NCBI RefSeq assembly: GCF_003664995.1 | Contig: NZ_JFHL01000002.1 | Location: 372,001 to 436,000 of the forward strand | Length of the DNA stretch: 64,000 bases | Direction of reading: 5' to 3' | DNA from: Mesotoga sp. BH458_6_3_2_1 | GTDB taxonomy: Bacteria; Thermotogota; Thermotogae; Petrotogales; Kosmotogaceae | Shown: positions 1-9,830 of the stretch, piece by piece | How the letters are laid out: every line of letters begins with the position of its first letter | How positions within the stretch are numbered: position 1 is the first letter of the stretch | The notes under the pieces: model-generated | What the model saw: the letters and a program-made list of their open reading frames with translations, nothing else | Databases searched by the model: none | What the model was told of the DNA's origin: nothing | Translations under genes and position numbers: made by a program

Positions 1-1332
1 GGGCGACTGAGGCACGGTCGCGGGATCGACAATAGCTGCGTTTCCAACTACGGCAGCTTCACTGATCTTCGCCTCTTCAAGTCTCTCAAGAAGCAGAGTG
101 TACAGGCTCTCTTTCACTGCTATTTGCCTCTCCAGATCGAGCAGCTGTTGCTCTTTCGCGGGTAGATTTCTCAGTTCAGACTGATATTGATCCCTCAGGA
201 GAGCTACCGCCTGAATCGAAGCTTGAAGGATTTGAAATCCGGCTTCTGAACTGATGACGCCTGTTATTATCTGCTGGTATGCGGGATTCAGCGTCATACC
301 CTGCCCAGAGACTATGAACTCATTCTGAATTTGCTCTGCAATCAGGCTTTCAGTCTTCGAAATCTCCGTGATTTTCGATCTAACTCTTGGGTCGGTTTTT
401 GGATACTGTTCTTCCAAGGAAGCAAGTTCAACTTGAAGAGTAGCGAGGTTCTGCCTCAGACTGGTCAGCACAGGATTGACAGAAAAACTCTCAGATGTCT
501 GCACCCAAAGTGCCTTTATGCTTTTCGAATCATCACTATCGAAGTCATCGAGCATACTCTGATAAGTTTCGATTTCGGCCTTTTTCTCCTCAGCAGATAT
601 CATAAGCTCATTGTACTGATTGTCATAGCCGCTAAGCATCTGAAAGAGCTGGTCGGCATGCTTGTCCAGGACATAGATACCTGTCTCCTCTTTAAACTGT
701 TTAATTTTATCTGTAGCCTCATTCAGATCGCTCTCTAGAAGTGGAATCTGTGCTTCAATGAATTCTCGTTTCCTTGTCAGGTCTCTTTTTGAGAGTTCTG
801 CCAATTTAGTGTTGTAAACATCGGCCAGGGTATTTGCGATGTCCCTTGCAAGAATGGGTTCTTTGTTCTGTACGGAGACTCTGACAATCCTGGTATCTTT
901 AACAGGTGATACGGTTATCATCGACGAAATGCTTCGCGTGAGAGAGGTTATAAGATCGCGGTCCGAATATCCTTCAGATAGCAGCCGGGCCTTCGCTTCT
1001 TCTGAATAAACCCTGTCAACCAAACCCAAAACTTCAATTATCTCTTCAATATTAGTTCTGCTTTTGATCAGTTCAACTTCTGTCGAGATGTTTGATCCTG
1101 AACTTCCTGTAAGTGAACTACTGAATAGATCACCTACTGAAGATTGAGAAGTAGGATCAACCTTGATGGTGACGCTGGCTTCATATATGGGTGTAGCGAA
1201 AATTAGGTAAATTCCTGTGACAACAACCACGGCCAGTACAATTGAAACGAAAAGAATCATTCGTTTCTTAAACATTCTAAAAATGTCTTCAAGAGTTAGT
1301 TCCCTATAATCGCTACCCTCGAACTCGCTCAC
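1..1332 (-). CDS. Wzz/GumC-type polysaccharide chain-length protein (3' end outside window)
   Basis: Partial gene: the first 444 codons are present and the frame stays open to the left edge. The start is a GTG at 1332 preceded by GGAGGTG. A short cytoplasmic N-terminus is followed by a membrane segment at about residues 25-45, then the Wzz domain (ATPIYEASVTIKVDPTS) and a long polar, coiled-coil-like periplasmic stretch. The visible end reads IVDPATVPQSP, the proline-rich turn that in this family precedes the second membrane helix. Family role: controls polymer length and export of exopolysaccharide at the inner membrane. It lies 14 bases after a PHP-type phosphatase and downstream of the SLBB export gene, so an export module is clear. 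Many such proteins carry a C-terminal tyrosine kinase; that part would lie outside the window. Confidence 0.9.
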   Translation of the reverse strand, partial: MSEFEGSDYRELTLEDIFRMFKKRMILFVSIVLAVVVVTGIYLIFATPIYEASVTIKVDPTSQSSVGDLFSSSLTGSSGSNISTEVELIKSRTNIEEIIEVLGLVDRVYSEEAKARLLSEGYSDRDLITSLTRSISSMITVSPVKDTRIVRVSVQNKEPILARDIANTLADVYNTKLAELSKRDLTRKREFIEAQIPLLESDLNEATDKIKQFKEETGIYVLDKHADQLFQMLSGYDNQYNELMISAEEKKAEIETYQSMLDDFDSDDSKSIKALWVQTSESFSVNPVLTSLRQNLATLQVELASLEEQYPKTDPRVRSKITEISKTESLIAEQIQNEFIVSGQGMTLNPAYQQIITGVISSEAGFQILQASIQAVALLRDQYQSELRNLPAKEQQLLDLERQIAVKESLYTLLLERLEEAKISEAAVVGNAAIVDPATVPQSP

Positions 1333-1346
1333 GAAAGCACCTCCAT

Positions 1347-2009
1347 CTATAGATAATAGTCATTCAGAAAAAGTTCGTATCGATCATCGCCGAAATCTAT
1401 GAGCAGTCTTCCGTCGTTTATTCTGTGCTTGTCGCTTCCGGTGACGTCGGCAGTTCTCTCTTCAATAAGAGCTTTGGCTTTTGGATCTCTATCAAGACTG
1501 TTCCAGTTTACCTGAAATAGAACTCCCATGTCCCTAAGCCGCGAGATATCCCCTGTAAGCTTCGTTTTTCCAAAGAGGAATCCACTTTTCTTGAAGAAGT
1601 AATCATACCTTTCCACGTGAGCGAGCAAAACCCTGAAACCTTTTGCTTGAAGCTTCTCTATCACTTCGAAAAGGTAATGAGGTTTTTGCTGAGTTGGAAG
1701 CTCAACCAAAATAATATCGGACTCACCCATAGAAATCAGGTTGCGTTCAAGAACCTCGGGCCTTAGAAATATCTCAGAGCCAAGCAATACCTCGACTGAA
1801 TGACCGTTCAATTCAGACTCAAATTCATTCCACCTTTTCATGATCTCCGATGTGCTTGTTGGACTCCTTGGAGACAAGAAATGTGGTGTCAAGTATAATC
1901 TCTCGACTCCTTTTACTTTCATCTCTTCCAGGAGCGTAATTGACTCCTGAATACTTTCAACACCGTCATCTACTGCCGGAAGCAGATGACAATGAGAATC
2001 AATGTTCAA
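1347..2009 (-). CDS. CpsB/YwqE-type PHP tyrosine-protein phosphatase
   Basis: 220 residues, the usual family size. The metal-binding PHP signature is at the N-terminus (DSHCHLLPAVDDG, residues 4-16), with further ligands in LAHVERY (near 128) and GSDKHR (near 193). The family is a manganese-dependent protein-tyrosine phosphatase that dephosphorylates the tyrosine kinase or co-polymerase controlling capsule or EPS length. The start is a TTG (2009) just after the SLBB stop with GAGG upstream; no ATG gives the N-terminal PHP motif. The neighbours are the SLBB exporter upstream and Wzz downstream, which fits a kinase/phosphatase switch for polymer length. The gene symbol is left blank because cpsB, capC and ywqE naming differs between groups. 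Confidence 0.9.
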   Translation of the reverse strand: MNIDSHCHLLPAVDDGVESIQESITLLEEMKVKGVERLYLTPHFLSPRSPTSTSEIMKRWNEFESELNGHSVEVLLGSEIFLRPEVLERNLISMGESDIILVELPTQQKPHYLFEVIEKLQAKGFRVLLAHVERYDYFFKKSGFLFGKTKLTGDISRLRDMGVLFQVNWNSLDRDPKAKALIEERTADVTGSDKHRINDGRLLIDFGDDRYELFLNDYYL

Positions 2010-2021
2010 TACAGTTCAACC

Positions 2022-5000
2022 TCACTTGAAAATGCCGACAGCAGAATTCACTATGCTGAGGGATGAAGCAACAATCGACATTATATCTTTTATATTGACG
2101 ATCGACGATTGAGGAACGAATATGATGTTGCCTGGCAAAAGTGGAACACTGCCCTTTGCAGGCTTCCCCTTCTGCTGATCGAGGTCAAGAACAAGCGGTT
2201 GCTCTTCAAGATTCTGGAATAGCAGCGCATTACCGAGTACGGCATAACTGGTCGGACCGCCGGCCTCGATTACCGCTTCAATTGCAGTCATGCCTTCATA
2301 GAATCTTACTACTCCAGGTCTCTGTACTTCACCGAAAACGTACACTCTGGCCGGTTCAGAATAAGGTACGTAGATAGTTGATCCAGGAGAAACGACCTTT
2401 CTAGTAAGTGAGATGAAGTCCTCTGGTGTAGTGGATATCTCTTCGGTTTTTCCTTCCGAAGAAATGAATATTCGTCCTCTCGTTTCAAAGTTGGATAGAC
2501 CGCCAGCAAGGCTTAGAAGTTCGGCAAGTGATAGATCTCCATATTCCGAGACCGAAAACACTCCCGGCGACTTCACGTCACCAATTACTGTGACGAAAGA
2601 CTCATAGTTCTTCAGTGCAACTATAGTATCCTCATCTGCCAGGTGGCTTCTGGCCAACTCCTCAGTTTTGCGCGCATCGATTAGCTGGACTCTTCCGTCA
2701 CTTCCTACAAGGCTTAACGTAGTCACTGATTGATCAAGTCCTCCCGCTACTGCAATTACCGTCGCTATAGAAGGCCTGGCACCATCGATTTCGTACTTTC
2801 CGGGCCTTGCGATTTCTCCGAGGATCGTAACAGAAATGGATGATTTGCTTGATACATAGACAAACGAGTTGTCTGAAAGCGAATCTCCACGCTTCTGCAG
2901 GACAGATGTAGTGAATTCGTTATAGAACTTCCCATCCTGAACTGCTATCTTGTCAACGATGTTCTCATCTATGAGGCCTCCGGCCCTCGCCAGTGTGTCA
3001 GATAGAGAATGACTCTCATCGGGATTGAAAGTGTACAGGCCGGGGCTGTTAACTGCACCTAGAACAGTAATTCGAATTACCTGCTTTGGCACTAAAACTG
3101 TGCTGCCAGCCTCAATAGAGGCATCCTTTCCTTCGTTCTTGATCTGAGAAAGACTCATTGGGAGGATCTCTCCAGATGGCAGCAAAATCCTTATTTGATC
3201 AGCAGCAGAGGCCTTTTCTCCCCCGGCTCTTGCCAGTATCCTCAGAATCGTTATTTCCTCTTCCAATGCAAATTCGTATTTGCCCGGTGAGTTAACCTCA
3301 CCGCTGACATATATGAACCGATCATCTCCAGCTACGTAAACAGTTTGACCACCGGCCAACGGCACATCGTTTCCTTCGACAAGATCAAGCCAAAAAATCT
3401 CCCTGTCATGATCACTAATTTTGATGTTGGTTGCAGCTCTCTCAGTTAGTCCACCGGCCTTTGAAATCGCCAGTAGCACTGTTGGAGATTCATTTTTAGC
3501 AAATTCGACCATACCCGGGTTCTTAACCTCTCCAATTACACTTACTCTAACTGGTTCATATATCGGGACATAAACGAAAGAACCATCCTCCAGGCTCAAA
3601 TCCAGTGCCTTTCCAAGGAGTATTGGGTCAACGCTCGCTGTGGTTGTTCTTCCAAAGGGATCAGTAATTTGAATCTTGTTGCCTAGAGCCAGTGGGGTCA
3701 TTCCTCCCGCGCGAGCAAGGAGAGTTGTCAGAGTGATTTTGTCTCCAGGTTCAAACTGCACCAACCCTGGATTATTTACGGCACCGACCACAAAGACCTG
3801 GCGTACTACATCTGGATAGACAACTATCGATCCTGGCGACAGGATCATATCGTTGTCTTTGAGATCCGAAATTTGCCGTTCCCTCTTTGATCCATCCGGA
3901 AGGATTACAGTGACCCTACCACTTGAATCAAAGTCGAGCTGATTCTGTTTTGCGAGAGCTGTTCTCAATGTAATCTCTTCGTTACTTGCAAAATCGACTC
4001 TTCCGCCTTTCTCTCTAGAGATTACATAGACAAATCTACCGTAAGTCTCAGGAACATATATTAACGAGCCGCTCGCTATCTGCGGGTCTTGAATTGAGCC
4101 TCTAAGTATTTCCTGAAGATCAAGCCTTCTTCTCCCACTCACATCGACAATTTCGATCTCCGCAGTTAGAGGGTCAGTCAAACCGCCCGATATGGCAATG
4201 AGTTTAGTTAACGTTGGGTTTGACTCTTCGCGACTTATCAGCTTCATTCCCGGTTCTCTCACTCCGCCTAGAATGTAGACATATTTCGAAGCCATTTCAG
4301 GAACAAAGACGGTGGCGCCGTCTGGGATGCTGGGAATAGGATCACGCGAAAGATCTTCTACTGAATAAGTGACTGTTGAAGCAGACTTAGAGTCAATTAC
4401 TGCAATATTGTATCTGTCGGCCAGATCGGTAATGCCGCCTGCGGCGGCAATTACTGTCGAAAGATTGAAAGGAATGACCGGCTTCAGGGTGACCGTACCG
4501 GGACTTCGCACCTGGCCAAGCACATTTGCCACATTGCTTGCCTGAGGATAGAAGATCACACTTCCGGTTTCCAGCTTCCAATCGGATTGTCCAAGAGAAC
4601 TTACCGGAATCTCAAACTTGTCACCTTCTGGCGAAATTACCAGAATTTCTTTTTCTGATGAAATCTCCACAAGATTCAGTTTTGCAAGAGCATTTCTCAA
4701 AGTGATACTCTCTCCTGCTGAAAAATCAACCTTACCACCACTCTCTTCCGAGATTACATAAACAAACCTATTATCAATTCTGGGAACGTAGATCAAGTCA
4801 TCATATTTGATTGAAGGGTCTTTGGAAGCACCTCTTAGAACTTCATCAAGATCAATTTCGGTAGCATCAGAACCTGAGAGAATCTGTATAGAAGAAATAT
4901 CGGCATTCTGCGTGAAGCCTCCACTTGTACTGATCGCGCGGGTTAACAAGAGGTCATCTTTGTCAAGCTCAACTTTCCCAGGTCTTCCCACCTCTCCGAA

Positions 5001-6749
5001 CACATATATCCAGGTACTGGTATCGGGGACTATTACAATCGAACCCGTTTCAAGGCCATAGTCGTCAAAAGATAGTCTGGAAATTGATAAAAGTTGACTC
5101 CCGCCTGATGCGTCAATGATTGAAATTTCCTTGTCTGAACTGAGATTAAGTAGATTAATTTTCGCCAGCAAGTTCCTAAGAGTGAAGGACTCCTTCTCGC
5201 TAAAATCGACTCTTCCGCCCTCTGTTGAAGAGATAACGTACACGTATCGTTGTTCCTTTTCCTTGACGTTAACTATTGACTGAGGACTTAGAATCAGAGG
5301 GCTTTTCGTCGATTCCTCAACAGAGAACAATCTAGTCCCTGACTCGGTTACTAACTCGACCATACCTGCGCTCTGAGTGACTCCTCCGGACTTGGCAATT
5401 GCCTTTCCAAGAGTAATCTCTTCGAAGTTAGCAAATGGTATTGAACCGGGATTCATGACCTCGCCAGTTACGAACACGTTCTTCTCTCCGCGAGGTAATA
5501 TTATCATCGATCCAGGCTCCAGTTCAGCGTCTTCTTTCTGTGAGAACTCTAATCGCTCTCCTGAAGGCTCTACCACAACTATCGAATCTTGATTTGTGGG
5601 ATCGTAAAGATCAACCTTCACCAGCGCGCTCAGAAGAGAGAGTTTTTCGTCTGTACTGAACTCAACTTTTCCTCCAAATGATGCAGAGGCGATGTACACA
5701 AATCGTTCCTGTTGACGAGGAACGAATATCGTATCGCCAGGATTCAGGGAAATGTCTTCGACTGAGCCACTAAAGAGAGAACTAACTTCTACTGATTCAG
5801 GTACTGTAAGGCCAATCCTTAAAATATACAGTTCATCAGAAGCTGTCTGTCTTAGCCCGCCAACCTTTCCAATCGCCTGCAATAGAGTTAGTTTCTCATG
5901 ATAGGGAATTGATGCTGGATTGTTGAACTCGCCCAGAAGTTTTACGGATTTTGAGGAGGAATCATTTGCAATGACGATACTTCCTGCAGGCAACTGGATG
6001 TCTTTGTCTCTTCCGGAGAGAATAGCGTTCAGGTTTATTGTGGTAGTGTTGCCTTCAATATCATCACTGATTAATAGGATCTCTTCATTGTCGGCTCCTT
6101 CTGTCAATCCTCCTGACTTAGCAATCACCTGGGTTAGAGTAATTCCGGGATTGAACTTCACAAGAGTAGGAGATCTAAACTCACCCATCGTCATTATCCA
6201 CGCCCGCGCACCGGCAGGTACGAATAGAGTTGAACCCTCAAGTAGTCTTTCTGTAAGAGCCGCTCCCCCATAGAGAATCGAAGACAGGTCAATTTGCTTT
6301 CTAGACCCATCCTTTCCCACAACAAATGAAGAAGAAAGATCCGCACCATCTCTTAGGCCACCGGCAAGTGCCAGGAGTTGAGAAATCCCAATTGTAGTAT
6401 CATGCCATTCTATGGCTCCAGGTTTGCTTACTTCACCAAGAACATAGAACATGAAAGGAGCAAACGATTTTACTGATACTGTTACTTGCGGTTTTGATGT
6501 CAATATGCCCTGGCTGAGAAACTGGGATGACAACAACGACTGGATTTCTTCAAGAGTTTTTCCAAGTAACATTACATTCCCAAGCGGACGCACAGAAGCA
6601 GTACCGTCTGGCCCCACGAGGGCTTCGCTGGAAAGATCAGCGGAACCATAGACAGAAACTGTCAAGAGGTCGCCCGGTCTAACCGAGTATCCAAACAGAA
6701 AGACCGTAAGCAATAACAGGACCGAAAGTGAGATAATTCTCACACGCAT
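2022..6749 (-). CDS. Giant polysaccharide export protein with about 18 SLBB units
   Basis: 1575 residues, several times longer than ordinary Wza-type exporters (about 350-400). It begins with a signal peptide (RIISLSVLLLLTVFLFGYS), then one Poly_export domain (YSVRPGDLLTVSVYG, residues 21-35, to about 90). After that come about 18 SLBB-like units of roughly 80 residues, counted by the strand motif hydrophobic-GEVxxPGxhxF. Fourteen have the standard GE(V/I/F)xxPG form. Four (the 4th, 6th, 8th and 11th) have a variant in which the turn becomes S-x-x-x-GG-(K/R)-V-(D/E)F and the usual AGG after the helix is replaced by residues such as AK(L/I)NL. No membrane barrel is obvious; the C-terminus ends in a short amphipathic helix (DIMSIVASSLSIVNSAVGI). 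It probably forms an extended periplasmic or toga-spanning conduit for exopolysaccharide. Start ATG with AAGGAGG. Confidence 0.88.
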   Translation of the reverse strand: MRVRIISLSVLLLLTVFLFGYSVRPGDLLTVSVYGSADLSSEALVGPDGTASVRPLGNVMLLGKTLEEIQSLLSSQFLSQGILTSKPQVTVSVKSFAPFMFYVLGEVSKPGAIEWHDTTIGISQLLALAGGLRDGADLSSSFVVGKDGSRKQIDLSSILYGGAALTERLLEGSTLFVPAGARAWIMTMGEFRSPTLVKFNPGITLTQVIAKSGGLTEGADNEEILLISDDIEGNTTTINLNAILSGRDKDIQLPAGSIVIANDSSSKSVKLLGEFNNPASIPYHEKLTLLQAIGKVGGLRQTASDELYILRIGLTVPESVEVSSLFSGSVEDISLNPGDTIFVPRQQERFVYIASASFGGKVEFSTDEKLSLLSALVKVDLYDPTNQDSIVVVEPSGERLEFSQKEDAELEPGSMIILPRGEKNVFVTGEVMNPGSIPFANFEEITLGKAIAKSGGVTQSAGMVELVTESGTRLFSVEESTKSPLILSPQSIVNVKEKEQRYVYVISSTEGGRVDFSEKESFTLRNLLAKINLLNLSSDKEISIIDASGGSQLLSISRLSFDDYGLETGSIVIVPDTSTWIYVFGEVGRPGKVELDKDDLLLTRAISTSGGFTQNADISSIQILSGSDATEIDLDEVLRGASKDPSIKYDDLIYVPRIDNRFVYVISEESGGKVDFSAGESITLRNALAKLNLVEISSEKEILVISPEGDKFEIPVSSLGQSDWKLETGSVIFYPQASNVANVLGQVRSPGTVTLKPVIPFNLSTVIAAAGGITDLADRYNIAVIDSKSASTVTYSVEDLSRDPIPSIPDGATVFVPEMASKYVYILGGVREPGMKLISREESNPTLTKLIAISGGLTDPLTAEIEIVDVSGRRRLDLQEILRGSIQDPQIASGSLIYVPETYGRFVYVISREKGGRVDFASNEEITLRTALAKQNQLDFDSSGRVTVILPDGSKRERQISDLKDNDMILSPGSIVVYPDVVRQVFVVGAVNNPGLVQFEPGDKITLTTLLARAGGMTPLALGNKIQITDPFGRTTTASVDPILLGKALDLSLEDGSFVYVPIYEPVRVSVIGEVKNPGMVEFAKNESPTVLLAISKAGGLTERAATNIKISDHDREIFWLDLVEGNDVPLAGGQTVYVAGDDRFIYVSGEVNSPGKYEFALEEEITILRILARAGGEKASAADQIRILLPSGEILPMSLSQIKNEGKDASIEAGSTVLVPKQVIRITVLGAVNSPGLYTFNPDESHSLSDTLARAGGLIDENIVDKIAVQDGKFYNEFTTSVLQKRGDSLSDNSFVYVSSKSSISVTILGEIARPGKYEIDGARPSIATVIAVAGGLDQSVTTLSLVGSDGRVQLIDARKTEELARSHLADEDTIVALKNYESFVTVIGDVKSPGVFSVSEYGDLSLAELLSLAGGLSNFETRGRIFISSEGKTEEISTTPEDFISLTRKVVSPGSTIYVPYSEPARVYVFGEVQRPGVVRFYEGMTAIEAVIEAGGPTSYAVLGNALLFQNLEEQPLVLDLDQQKGKPAKGSVPLLPGNIIFVPQSSIVNIKDIMSIVASSLSIVNSAVGIFK

Positions 6750-6772: not shown

Positions 6773-7135
6773 TCATTTCTCTTCCCCGAGAAGCTCTTCA
6801 ACCAACGATTTGAGCTCCGAAAAATCAGGAGACTTAACTACGTAGGCGTCAGCAGCCCAGGAAGATAGATCATGCTTATAATGTGTGTAGGCGGTTAGAA
6901 GCACAATTTTCTTCTCAGGGTATTGCTTGCGTATTGTTCCGGCAAGTTCGAGGCCATTCATCCCTTGCATTTCAATGTCAATAGTTATGAGGTTGAACGA
7001 AGTATCAAGATTGAGAATTCCTATTGCTTCTTCAGCACTACTGGCGCTCACCACTTCGAAGCCAGACTCCTCAAGTTCTTCTTCGAGAAGCAGTCTCATG
7101 TTCTTTTCATCTTCAACTATCAGTATCCTTTTCAA
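6773..7135 (-). CDS. Stand-alone response-regulator receiver protein
   Basis: 120 residues forming a single CheY/Spo0F-like receiver and no output domain. Acidic pocket ED at residues 7-8 (ILIVEDEKN), phospho-acceptor Asp in LITIDIEM, conserved Thr in VLLTAY and conserved Lys in AYVVKSPD. The start is chosen as TTG at 7135, 7 bases after GGGAGG; the longer in-frame extension reads through the kinase gene and has no receiver features. It overlaps the 3' end of the histidine kinase by 23 bases, so the two are translationally coupled and form a cognate pair. With no DNA-binding domain it must act by protein contact or as a phosphorelay step. The SLBB exporter follows 23 bases downstream, so control of EPS export is a reasonable inference, not shown. 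Confidence 0.9.
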   Translation of the reverse strand: MKRILIVEDEKNMRLLLEEELEESGFEVVSASSAEEAIGILNLDTSFNLITIDIEMQGMNGLELAGTIRKQYPEKKIVLLTAYTHYKHDLSSWAADAYVVKSPDFSELKSLVEELLGEEK

Positions 7136-9830
7136 GTTCAAACCTCCCAAAGTTCTTAGTCGGCAAAGTGAAGGTGAAAACCGTTCCTTCCATTCCGCTT
7201 GAGGCGTGGATCTCTCCCCCGTGTTCTTCAACGATCTTCTTGCATATAGAAAGGCCGAGACCCGTGCCTAAAGTCTTCGTTGTGAAGAAGGGTTCAAAGA
7301 TTCGCTTCAGAGTCTCTTCCGGGATAATATTCCCACCGTTCTTGGCCGAGAAATAAACGTACTCAGCCTTTCTCTCTAGAGTGATGAGAACTTGCCCGGC
7401 TTTCTCCGAGGCCTCAATAGCATTCTGAACAAGATTGATTATAACCTGTTTAATCCTATCTTTATTTCCGTAATATTCAATTCTATCTTCTTTCGCATAT
7501 AGGACAAGTTTAACATTTTCTCTCGAGGCTTTTTCTTCAAAACCTGCCAGTATTTCGCGTGTGACAGAAACAAGATCAAACTCTTCTTCGGAAGGTTTGG
7601 CCTTTCTTCTGGAAATTTCCAGCACTTCTCCTACTATACCGTCCAACCTCTGAAGTTCGTCCATCAAGATCCTTGCATATTCCTCAGTTTTTTCCCTATC
7701 TGAGGAAGCCAGTATTCTCTTCACAAAACCACCGATTATTGTTATTGGATTTCTGATTTCGTGGGCTACTTTTGCCGACATCTCGCCCAATGCTGCAAGC
7801 TTTTCTCTGCTCTTGAGCTCTTGTTCGAGTTTTCTCCTCCTAGTTATGTCATCAAGTGATAGAATTACGCCTGTAAGCCTCTTCCGCTTTTCTTCTCTCA
7901 AAGGGGTGATTCGAACATCGAAATGTCTCTCGCCAAAAGCTTCGAAATGTTGATCCGTTAACGTAATTGTCTCCCCAATTCTTATAGCATCAGAGAGCAG
8001 GTCAATAATACTACCAAGTTTCGTTCGAATTGATCGAATGCTCTTCCCGATTAGTTCTTCCCTGCTCAGGTCTAGAAGAAATTCTGCTGTTCTGTTAAGT
8101 TCTGTTATTTCACCTTCTACGGAACAGACTATTATCGCGGACTCGAGAGACTGCAGTATGCTTGAAACGAACTTGCGGTAGTAATTAGACAGATTTCGCT
8201 CCTTCTCTAGACTCTCAGCCATTTGAAGAATTCTTTTATAATTTTCAGTCAATTCTAGGGCTACTCCCGTACTATCGGCAAGCAGCCCAAGGATTTCCAT
8301 ATCTGCACTGCTAATTTTCTTTCCGGAATCATTGTTGTCGACTACCAGAACTCCCAGAACGTCCTCTTCACCGGCTACTGGAGCGATCAAGTATTCATTG
8401 GTTCCAATTATTCTATTCATAAGAGCCAATTCATCAACTCTCAATCTCAACATCTCCGGGGTTACATGAACCATCTTCTTTCTGAGGACCACCCTCTCGA
8501 GAATCAGATTTCCCGGATACGGTATTGAACCCAATTGCCTGTCATCTTGAGCATCATATGGCTCAAGAGATGCGTCCTGAAGATATCTGGAAAGATCGCT
8601 GTATATAGATTTGTCATGTTCACTGTTTTTTCTTGCAGAAGTGACTCTGGTTTCTGAAACAAGTAGGGAGCGGACGGTATCTACTTTAAAGAATGTCGCT
8701 CTGTCGAATTTCAACCCCGAAGTGTCGGTTGCACCTACTAGAAGAATTCTGACTACTCTCTCTCGATCAAGGCTCCGTTTCATAGCGTCTGTTATTTTAT
8801 GAAGTACGCTAAGCTTGAAAAGCTGCTCTTTCTGCTCACTTATAAGTTCTTCATGTTTCTTTCCAAGTTGTCTAAGTTTTCTAACCTCTAGCTCTAATTT
8901 TGAAGTAAGCTTTATTTTGCTTATCGCGACGGCCATCCTTCTGCTGATATCGTCCAGCATCTTCAAGTCTTCTTTATCGAGATGTTTGTAGGCCCTGAAT
9001 TCGCCTTCAATTTCCTCCCTGTCCGCCGCAATTATCAGTCCAACAAGAGTTTTTTCAACCGTAAGAGGGATCGCAACAAATGAGCCAACCGAAATCTCTT
9101 CTCTGAAAATCAATGATGAAATCACTGACTTCCTGGCTGAAACGAATAGTCTCTCCTGAGAAAGTAAATCGAGCTGTTCCTCAGAAATCATAATCTCAAT
9201 TCCTCTGAGAGGGTTTGTACCTTCACCTATGGCAGCTCTTAGGCGGAATTTGGTCTCGACTTTCTCTAGGAAAAAGATCCACCTAACCCTCAGCATTTCT
9301 CTTGCAATCTCTAGAGATTTGTAGATCAACTCTTCAGAATGAGTTTCTGTTTCAAGAACTGAAGTCAATCTAGATACGAGTTTCAGTCTCCTGTACCCTT
9401 CTTCTTCAGCCGATCTCTTGAGAGAATAGTATAATGCAAGTTCGAGTTCCTTAATCCAGGCTTTGAGTGAGTCCTTAACTTCAGAGCCGGCAGAAAGCAG
9501 TAGCAAACCAAGGGGTTCATTATTGTAGGAAAGATGTATTAGTTTAACCCGCTCCTCTTGTTCTCCATGACGGGAAGATAAGATGACATTCTTCTCTTCG
9601 ATGATATTCTCCGACGTCTTTCTGAGGAAGTCATTGCTGGTCAACTTTATCTCTCTTCCCGTTCGAGAAAGACCATCTCTCGGATCAACTTCTTTGAACA
9701 CGTCGCGGTATTTTTCCAGTATGAACAGGAATGCATCGGAAGAGACTTCTGAAGAAATTCTCCTGAGAATTCTCTTTATTAATTCATCGGCCGAAATCTC
9801 AAAATTAGATCTCTTCAGTTCTACCACCAC
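7113..9830 (-). CDS. Multi-GAF/PAS sensor histidine kinase
   Basis: 905 residues, with no signal peptide or membrane helix, so a cytoplasmic sensor. The N-terminal 140 residues are of unknown type. They are followed by two GAF-like regions (about 150-320 and 340-540), separated by a coiled coil (KLTSKLELEVRKLRQLGKK), then a PAS domain (about 565-680; ITELNRTAEFLLDLSREEL). The kinase core has the H-box MSAKVAHEIRNPITIIGGF, N-box IINLVQNAIEAS, F-box FEPFFTTKTLG and G-box GTGLGLSICKKI. All catalytic motifs are intact. Start GTG at 9830, overlapping the Mut7-C gene by 26 bases, with GGAGAAGA upstream. It is paired with the receiver just downstream. The GAF and PAS inputs suggest a small ligand or redox signal; the ligand cannot be read from sequence. 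Confidence 0.93.
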   Translation of the reverse strand: MVVELKRSNFEISADELIKRILRRISSEVSSDAFLFILEKYRDVFKEVDPRDGLSRTGREIKLTSNDFLRKTSENIIEEKNVILSSRHGEQEERVKLIHLSYNNEPLGLLLLSAGSEVKDSLKAWIKELELALYYSLKRSAEEEGYRRLKLVSRLTSVLETETHSEELIYKSLEIAREMLRVRWIFFLEKVETKFRLRAAIGEGTNPLRGIEIMISEEQLDLLSQERLFVSARKSVISSLIFREEISVGSFVAIPLTVEKTLVGLIIAADREEIEGEFRAYKHLDKEDLKMLDDISRRMAVAISKIKLTSKLELEVRKLRQLGKKHEELISEQKEQLFKLSVLHKITDAMKRSLDRERVVRILLVGATDTSGLKFDRATFFKVDTVRSLLVSETRVTSARKNSEHDKSIYSDLSRYLQDASLEPYDAQDDRQLGSIPYPGNLILERVVLRKKMVHVTPEMLRLRVDELALMNRIIGTNEYLIAPVAGEEDVLGVLVVDNNDSGKKISSADMEILGLLADSTGVALELTENYKRILQMAESLEKERNLSNYYRKFVSSILQSLESAIIVCSVEGEITELNRTAEFLLDLSREELIGKSIRSIRTKLGSIIDLLSDAIRIGETITLTDQHFEAFGERHFDVRITPLREEKRKRLTGVILSLDDITRRRKLEQELKSREKLAALGEMSAKVAHEIRNPITIIGGFVKRILASSDREKTEEYARILMDELQRLDGIVGEVLEISRRKAKPSEEEFDLVSVTREILAGFEEKASRENVKLVLYAKEDRIEYYGNKDRIKQVIINLVQNAIEASEKAGQVLITLERKAEYVYFSAKNGGNIIPEETLKRIFEPFFTTKTLGTGLGLSICKKIVEEHGGEIHASSGMEGTVFTFTLPTKNFGRFELEKDTDS

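Follow-up and report, generated by a model that had tools for sequence, protein, structure and literature searches.

An 18-unit SLBB array in the Wza-type polysaccharide exporter of Mesotoga and the covariation of SLBB number with Omp-alpha length across Thermotogota

Among polysaccharide export proteins of the OPX type, the closest described system is E. coli Wza (Class 1; PDB 2J58), in which a Poly_export domain, two SLBB units and a helix together measure 140 Å (PMC12881504). Its complex with the co-polymerase Wzc (PDB 9R64) is 360 Å long and covers about 250 Å of periplasm with two SLBB layers (PMC12881504). KpsD and GfcC (Class 2; GfcC PDB 3P42) contain an SLBB-related beta-grasp and belong to an ABC pathway. 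The Class 3 proteins WzaB, WzaX and WzaS of Myxococcus (PDB 9N9A) combine Poly_export with one or two SLBB units, and a periplasmic gap of about 100 Å has been proposed for them (PMC9603273). The largest published number of SLBB units was initially 8 (PMC1796856) and later 14, among long Class 1 proteins (Saidi 2022, PMC9603273); the latter survey, which covered other Gram-negatives and names no Thermotogota in its main text, found OPX length to be unrelated to periplasm thickness (PMC9603273). In Thermotoga maritima, Omp-alpha (OmpA1), an SLH protein whose coiled coil runs to 316 residues, keeps the outer membrane about 50 nm away from the cytoplasmic membrane (PMC3387000).

The window analyzed here is a stretch of 64,000 nucleotides from the 3.2-Mb genome of a Mesotoga species (Kosmotogaceae). 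Its exporter gene is a single intact open reading frame (2022-6749, minus strand, ATG start) encoding 1,575 amino acids (Table 1), and the Mesotoga genome yielded no second match to the exporter. From the N to the C terminus, the protein comprises a signal peptide, modeled by AlphaFold2 with an N-terminal helix, a Poly_export domain (aa 21-94, 1.1e-15; Pfam PF02563), 18 SLBB units without gaps and a predicted short C-terminal helix. Dividing the chain by hand and scanning it with an iterated unit HMM both yield exactly 18 contiguous units of 75-85 aa between residues 99 and 1547. The preliminary description of a 1,575-residue Wza-type protein with one Poly_export domain and 18 SLBB units is therefore upheld by the reading frame, the Pfam Poly_export match, the segmentation and the HMM.

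Table 1. Features of the exporter gene and its neighbors in the 64,000-nucleotide window
Feature	Position	Strand	Evidence
OPX (Wza-type) polysaccharide export protein, 1575 aa	2022..6749	-	ORF, Pfam, unit HMM
Signal peptide, about aa 1-20	6690..6749	-	sequence; predicted N-terminal helix
Poly_export domain, aa 21-98	6456..6689	-	Pfam PF02563; Wza matches
SLBB unit 1, standard	6201..6455	-	unit segmentation
SLBB unit 2, standard	5949..6200	-	unit segmentation
SLBB unit 3, standard	5706..5948	-	unit segmentation
SLBB unit 4, variant, FGGKVEF turn	5481..5705	-	segmentation + family tree
SLBB unit 5, standard	5250..5480	-	unit segmentation
SLBB unit 6, variant, EGGRVDF	5013..5249	-	segmentation + family tree
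SLBB unit 7, standard	4770..5012	-	unit segmentation
SLBB unit 8, variant, SGGKVDF, weak GfcC_C match	4533..4769	-	segmentation, Pfam, family tree
SLBB unit 9, standard	4287..4532	-	unit segmentation
SLBB unit 10, standard	4038..4286	-	unit segmentation
SLBB unit 11, variant, KGGRVDF	3801..4037	-	segmentation + family tree
SLBB unit 12, standard	3552..3800	-	unit segmentation
SLBB unit 13, standard	3321..3551	-	unit segmentation
SLBB unit 14, standard; sister to variant clade in family tree	3075..3320	-	segmentation + tree
SLBB unit 15, standard	2838..3074	-	unit segmentation
SLBB unit 16, standard	2598..2837	-	unit segmentation
SLBB unit 17, standard	2352..2597	-	unit segmentation
SLBB unit 18, standard; most conserved, 80% identity to L008 (congener) counterpart	2109..2351	-	segmentation + congener comparison
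C-terminal amphipathic segment, aa 1548-1575	2025..2108	-	low-confidence model; genus conservation
CpsB/CapC-type (PHP) tyrosine phosphatase, adjoins exporter downstream	1347..2009	-	Pfam PF19567 9.3e-33
Wzz/GNVR co-polymerase with BY-kinase, Tyr-rich tail, ~736 aa, runs past window edge	1..1332	-	Pfam
Response regulator, directly upstream of exporter gene	6773..7231	-	Pfam

Fourteen units are of the standard type and exactly four, units 4, 6, 8 and 11, carry the variant turn GG[KR]V[DE]F, a division that the segmentation confirmed as originally described. Variants resemble one another (mean identity 41%) more than standard units do (27%), and identity between the two types is lower still (23%). 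The variants lack the sGG signature of the SLBB superfamily, and none of the four was scored by Pfam SLBB when scanned singly, which is why Pfam recognizes 14 stretches rather than 18 (SLBB_2, 1.7e-96; SLBB, 9e-92; 14 passing stretches each). Since Pfam also finds 14 in this protein, which has the same architecture as the long Class 1 proteins, the gap between our 18 and the published 14 is partly a matter of counting method, and the published maximum may stem from proteins like the Mesotoga exporter.

AlphaFold2 models built from shallow alignments (pLDDT 72-73) revealed a strand-strand-helix-strand-strand order common to standard and variant units. The best Foldseek matches of the exporter are E. 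coli Wza structures, including chains of the Wza-Wzc complex, and GfcC is also among the matches, in keeping with the expectation that the units align as SLBB folds. With pTM values of 0.31-0.34, the models do not fix the geometry between units. The 28 residues after unit 18 (SSIVNIKDIMSIVASSLSIVNSAVGIFK) are amphipathic and near-identical among all complete genus members; a 22-residue helix is predicted at aa 1553-1574 with low confidence (pLDDT 31-38). A Pfam scan did not detect Wza_C (PF18412) on this tail; the segment is a candidate outer-membrane helix. The exporter has no lipobox and contains no cysteine along its whole chain.

The genes of the locus run in the same direction in the order histidine kinase, response regulator, exporter, CpsB/CapC phosphatase, Wzz/GNVR tyrosine-kinase co-polymerase and Wzy_C (924 aa), so that the last three, all downstream, link the exporter genetically to the Wzz/Wzc pathway. 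The first two genes, for the GAF/PAS-containing histidine kinase and the response regulator (window positions 6773-9830), overlap each other and stop some 24 bases short of the exporter's start; this pair is a candidate regulator of the polysaccharide operon. On every testable family criterion, namely signal peptide plus Poly_export, SLBB units and pathway link, the exporter is an OPX protein.

Comparison with the known classes places it nearest to Wza, its best sequence and fold match, with which it shares the order Poly_export then SLBB and an operon containing a tyrosine-kinase co-polymerase and a phosphatase. It differs from Wza in having 18 SLBB units instead of 2, in lacking both a Cys lipobox and a recognized Wza_C, in a CpsB/PHP rather than Wzb-type phosphatase, and in its variant SLBB subtype. 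With Class 2 it shares the beta-grasp, but the GfcC module at the C terminus that defines this class is absent: Pfam GfcC_C matches unit 8 only, weakly and in mid-array, units resembling GfcC lie among the others within the array, and the pathway is Wzy-type rather than ABC. Class 3 proteins likewise possess Poly_export and SLBB without a recognized Wza_C, but a gap such as that proposed for them would be filled by the Mesotoga array, a single chain.

To place this array in a wider context, we surveyed 103 Thermotogota species genomes and identified Poly_export in 83, nearly always in single copy. The genome-contig profile scan used the family alignment; the full-phylum alignment had no conserved stretch. 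Of the 103 genomes, 80 had both OPX and Wzz and 15 had neither, which leaves 8 discordant cases (Fisher p=3e-11). Complete arrays contain 5-20 units, and at least 8 in all but one: 18 in the own genus, 13-20 in other Kosmotogaceae genera, 8-15 in a second family and mostly 9-14 in the remaining families. Nine non-Thermotogota OPX proteins from the family search have 1-4 units each by the same unit HMM. Long SLBB arrays are phylum-wide, and the Mesotoga exporter is no one-off. The shortest complete exporter of the phylum (L086, genome G050; 5 units, 589-aa frame) belongs to family f5, most members of which have neither OPX nor Wzz, and its genome contains no detectable SLH/Omp-alpha protein. 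Two further loci have broken frames, L101 (G071) with a split or shifted frame of 428+665 aa and L117 (G091) with Poly_export across two frames, which may represent pseudogenes, programmed shifts or assembly errors.

Within the own genus, all seven complete arrays (this one included) have 18 units in identical order, with variants at 4, 6, 8 and 11 in every array, at identities down to 57%; each of units 1-18 pairs with one unit of the 57%-identical congener as reciprocal best match. Because number and order recur in all seven, the 18-unit array is not a chance product, and the variant order proved conserved within the genus rather than scattered. Across the family, the three N-terminal units and those at the C terminus remain individually recognizable, and it is the middle that grows. 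The family tree unites all variants in one clade (support 0.94), and arrays of 13, 16, 18 and 20 units contain 2, 3, 4 and 5 variant copies, respectively. Given this single clade and a variant count that rises with array length, the alternation looks like growth by duplicated standard+variant doublets rather than a functional spacing code. The idea of variants at set intervals holds for their positions within the genus; as a general rule of regular spacing it was rejected, since intervals differ among genera and variant number follows array length. A different mode appears in one genus of what we infer to be Petrotogaceae, where a single unit has been amplified to 1, 2, 4 or 5 copies in sister species. 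The five-copy case (L044:1119-4826; G030, genus g6 in the second family of the order) consists of successive SLBB units repeated in tandem every 204 nt with 95-100% identity, a recent VNTR-like change of exporter length.

The preliminary description had suggested surveying Thermotogota for unit number against periplasm width. We performed this survey with Omp-alpha length as the proxy; that rod length equals periplasm width beyond T. maritima is what we infer. Homologues were collected phylum-wide by SLH domain, coiled coil and hydrophobic C terminus, and their core length, at a rise of 0.1485 nm per residue, was compared with SLBB number; genomes encode 2-4 paralogues, some of which the comparison covers. 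Unit number was strongly correlated with the longest Omp-alpha core, both across 57 genomes and across 27 genus means (Pearson 0.91 and Spearman 0.92 in each case, raw), with an ordinary regression slope of 3.3 nm per unit. Genus g27 (L145, L146, L148, L150, L159) additionally encodes SLH and coiled-coil proteins whose open frames, at about 1000 aa, are double the usual Omp-alpha length; these proteins were left out of the regression and might reach across the toga's ballooned poles.

The covariation persisted after phylogenetic correction by independent contrasts on a 40-species RecG tree: r=0.76 for the longest paralogue (2.5 nm per unit; 0 of 20,000 permutations as high), r=0.53 for the paralogue mean (p=0.0009) and r=0.80 for orthogroup OG-B alone (p<1e-4; slope 2.79±0.35 nm per unit). 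The OG-B result was stable under equal branch lengths and upon removal of any of the five largest families (r 0.73-0.83; 2.6-3.05 nm), and within two families r reached 0.95 and 0.98. Depending on the method, the slope is 2.5-3.3 nm per unit. A second orthogroup gave r=0.11 with, and r=0.74 without, its single outlier, a Kosmotogaceae paralogue with a 150-residue core (L214, G011) that stands beside a 438-residue one in a genome whose exporter has 20 units. BamA length, considered as a confounder, correlated raw (r=0.66) but not in contrasts (r=0.19, not significant), which indicates that the correction removes clade effects. Co-polymerase length, considered as a second ruler, behaved similarly, its raw r of 0.52 falling to a nonsignificant 0.16 in contrasts, and genome size showed no significant relation to unit number in contrasts (r=0.09). 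TamB (PF04357), another spanning protein, was found in none of the 103 Thermotogota genomes and in 6 of 14 control genomes.

Taken with the Wza-like architecture, we consider the exporter to be probably a periplasm-spanning Wza-type export conduit whose SLBB array is length-matched to the envelope. By analogy with E. coli Wza-Wzc, the Wzz-type tyrosine-kinase co-polymerase, whose gene is the second one downstream, would receive the Poly_export end on its arms; every SLBB unit would form one layer of a homo-oligomeric stack, and the C-terminal segment would engage the outer membrane. Such a stack would provide a protected channel for polysaccharide made by Wzx/Wzy. Array length would follow the width that the coiled-coil rod of Omp-alpha gives the periplasm, so that a longer or shorter rod would lead evolution to gain or lose single units or standard+variant pairs. 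Of the earlier proposal of a heteropolymeric tube or ruler, the ruler element has gained strong support from the covariation after correction and within families; tube assembly and ring stoichiometry would follow the Wza precedent, and "heteropolymeric" finds no support, as one gene encodes one chain and any oligomer would be homo-oligomeric.

A layer height of 2.5-3 nm fits the Wza dimensions reasonably. If layers of 2.5-2.8 nm are added to the 25 nm of Wza-Wzc, the 11-unit genus (9 added layers), presumably Thermotoga, comes to 48-50 nm, against about 50 nm in T. maritima, and the Mesotoga exporter (16 added layers) to 65-70 nm, against Mesotoga Omp-alpha cores of 470-481 residues, or 70-71 nm; this agreement is order-of-magnitude support and not proof, as the sums would shift with peptidoglycan-membrane distance and co-polymerase height. 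Somewhat less firmly, we favor the view that exporter and rod coevolve throughout Thermotogota as a length-matched pair, one SLBB layer (~2.5-3 nm) per ~17-20 coiled-coil residues; Omp-alpha itself is a structural spacer of unrelated fold that would span the same space.

The array might instead be a beads-on-a-string tether that spans the periplasm from co-polymerase to outer membrane and guides the polymer along its outside, not through a lumen. The length correlation indicates a matched span and says nothing of a lumen, and the exporter has no Cys, lipobox or Wza_C match; nevertheless, its architecture is that of Wza, solved as an octameric channel (PMC12881504), and its operon holds tyrosine-kinase co-polymerase and Wzy_C genes, which makes a tether unlikely. 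Long arrays could also be by-products of easy tandem duplication that have no length function and match Omp-alpha through shared clade history. The near-identical L044 repeats show how readily units duplicate, and BamA shows that clade history can produce a raw correlation. Contrasts, however, drop BamA while keeping Omp-alpha; in the L044 genus the rod core also grows, from 275 to 345 residues, as units go from 11-12 to 14-15; and in the own genus the 18 units and their order are fixed. We regard this explanation as very improbable.

Least weight of all falls on a saccharide-related function, in which unit number would set the modal length of the polymer, or the units would bind sugars with the variants as distinct sites. 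SLBB domains have been proposed as ligand-binding modules (PMC1796856), and the variants are a distinct, conserved subtype. Yet it is normally a Wzz-type co-polymerase that determines chain length, and one is present here; covariation with the rod is not predicted by such a role, and the variants have lost the superfamily signature.

For the length-matched conduit, the new element is the phylum-wide matching of exporter and Omp-alpha, unlike the null result published from other bacteria. How polysaccharide crosses from the inner-membrane co-polymerase to the outer membrane is debated, and length matching makes the envelope-spanning model testable: one phylum offers exporters of 5 to 20 countable layers whose number tracks a separate rod, itself with a known rise per residue, and this yields a measurable prediction of ~2.5-3 nm of periplasm per SLBB unit. 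The relationship also allows periplasm width in uncultured species to be estimated from sequence, and the arrays show that a ruler protein can grow through duplicated single modules or module pairs. If exporter and rod are indeed such a matched pair, counting the layers of the exporter would read out periplasm width directly at the molecular level, and a continuous tube would solve the "gap" problem of OPX-dependent secretion.
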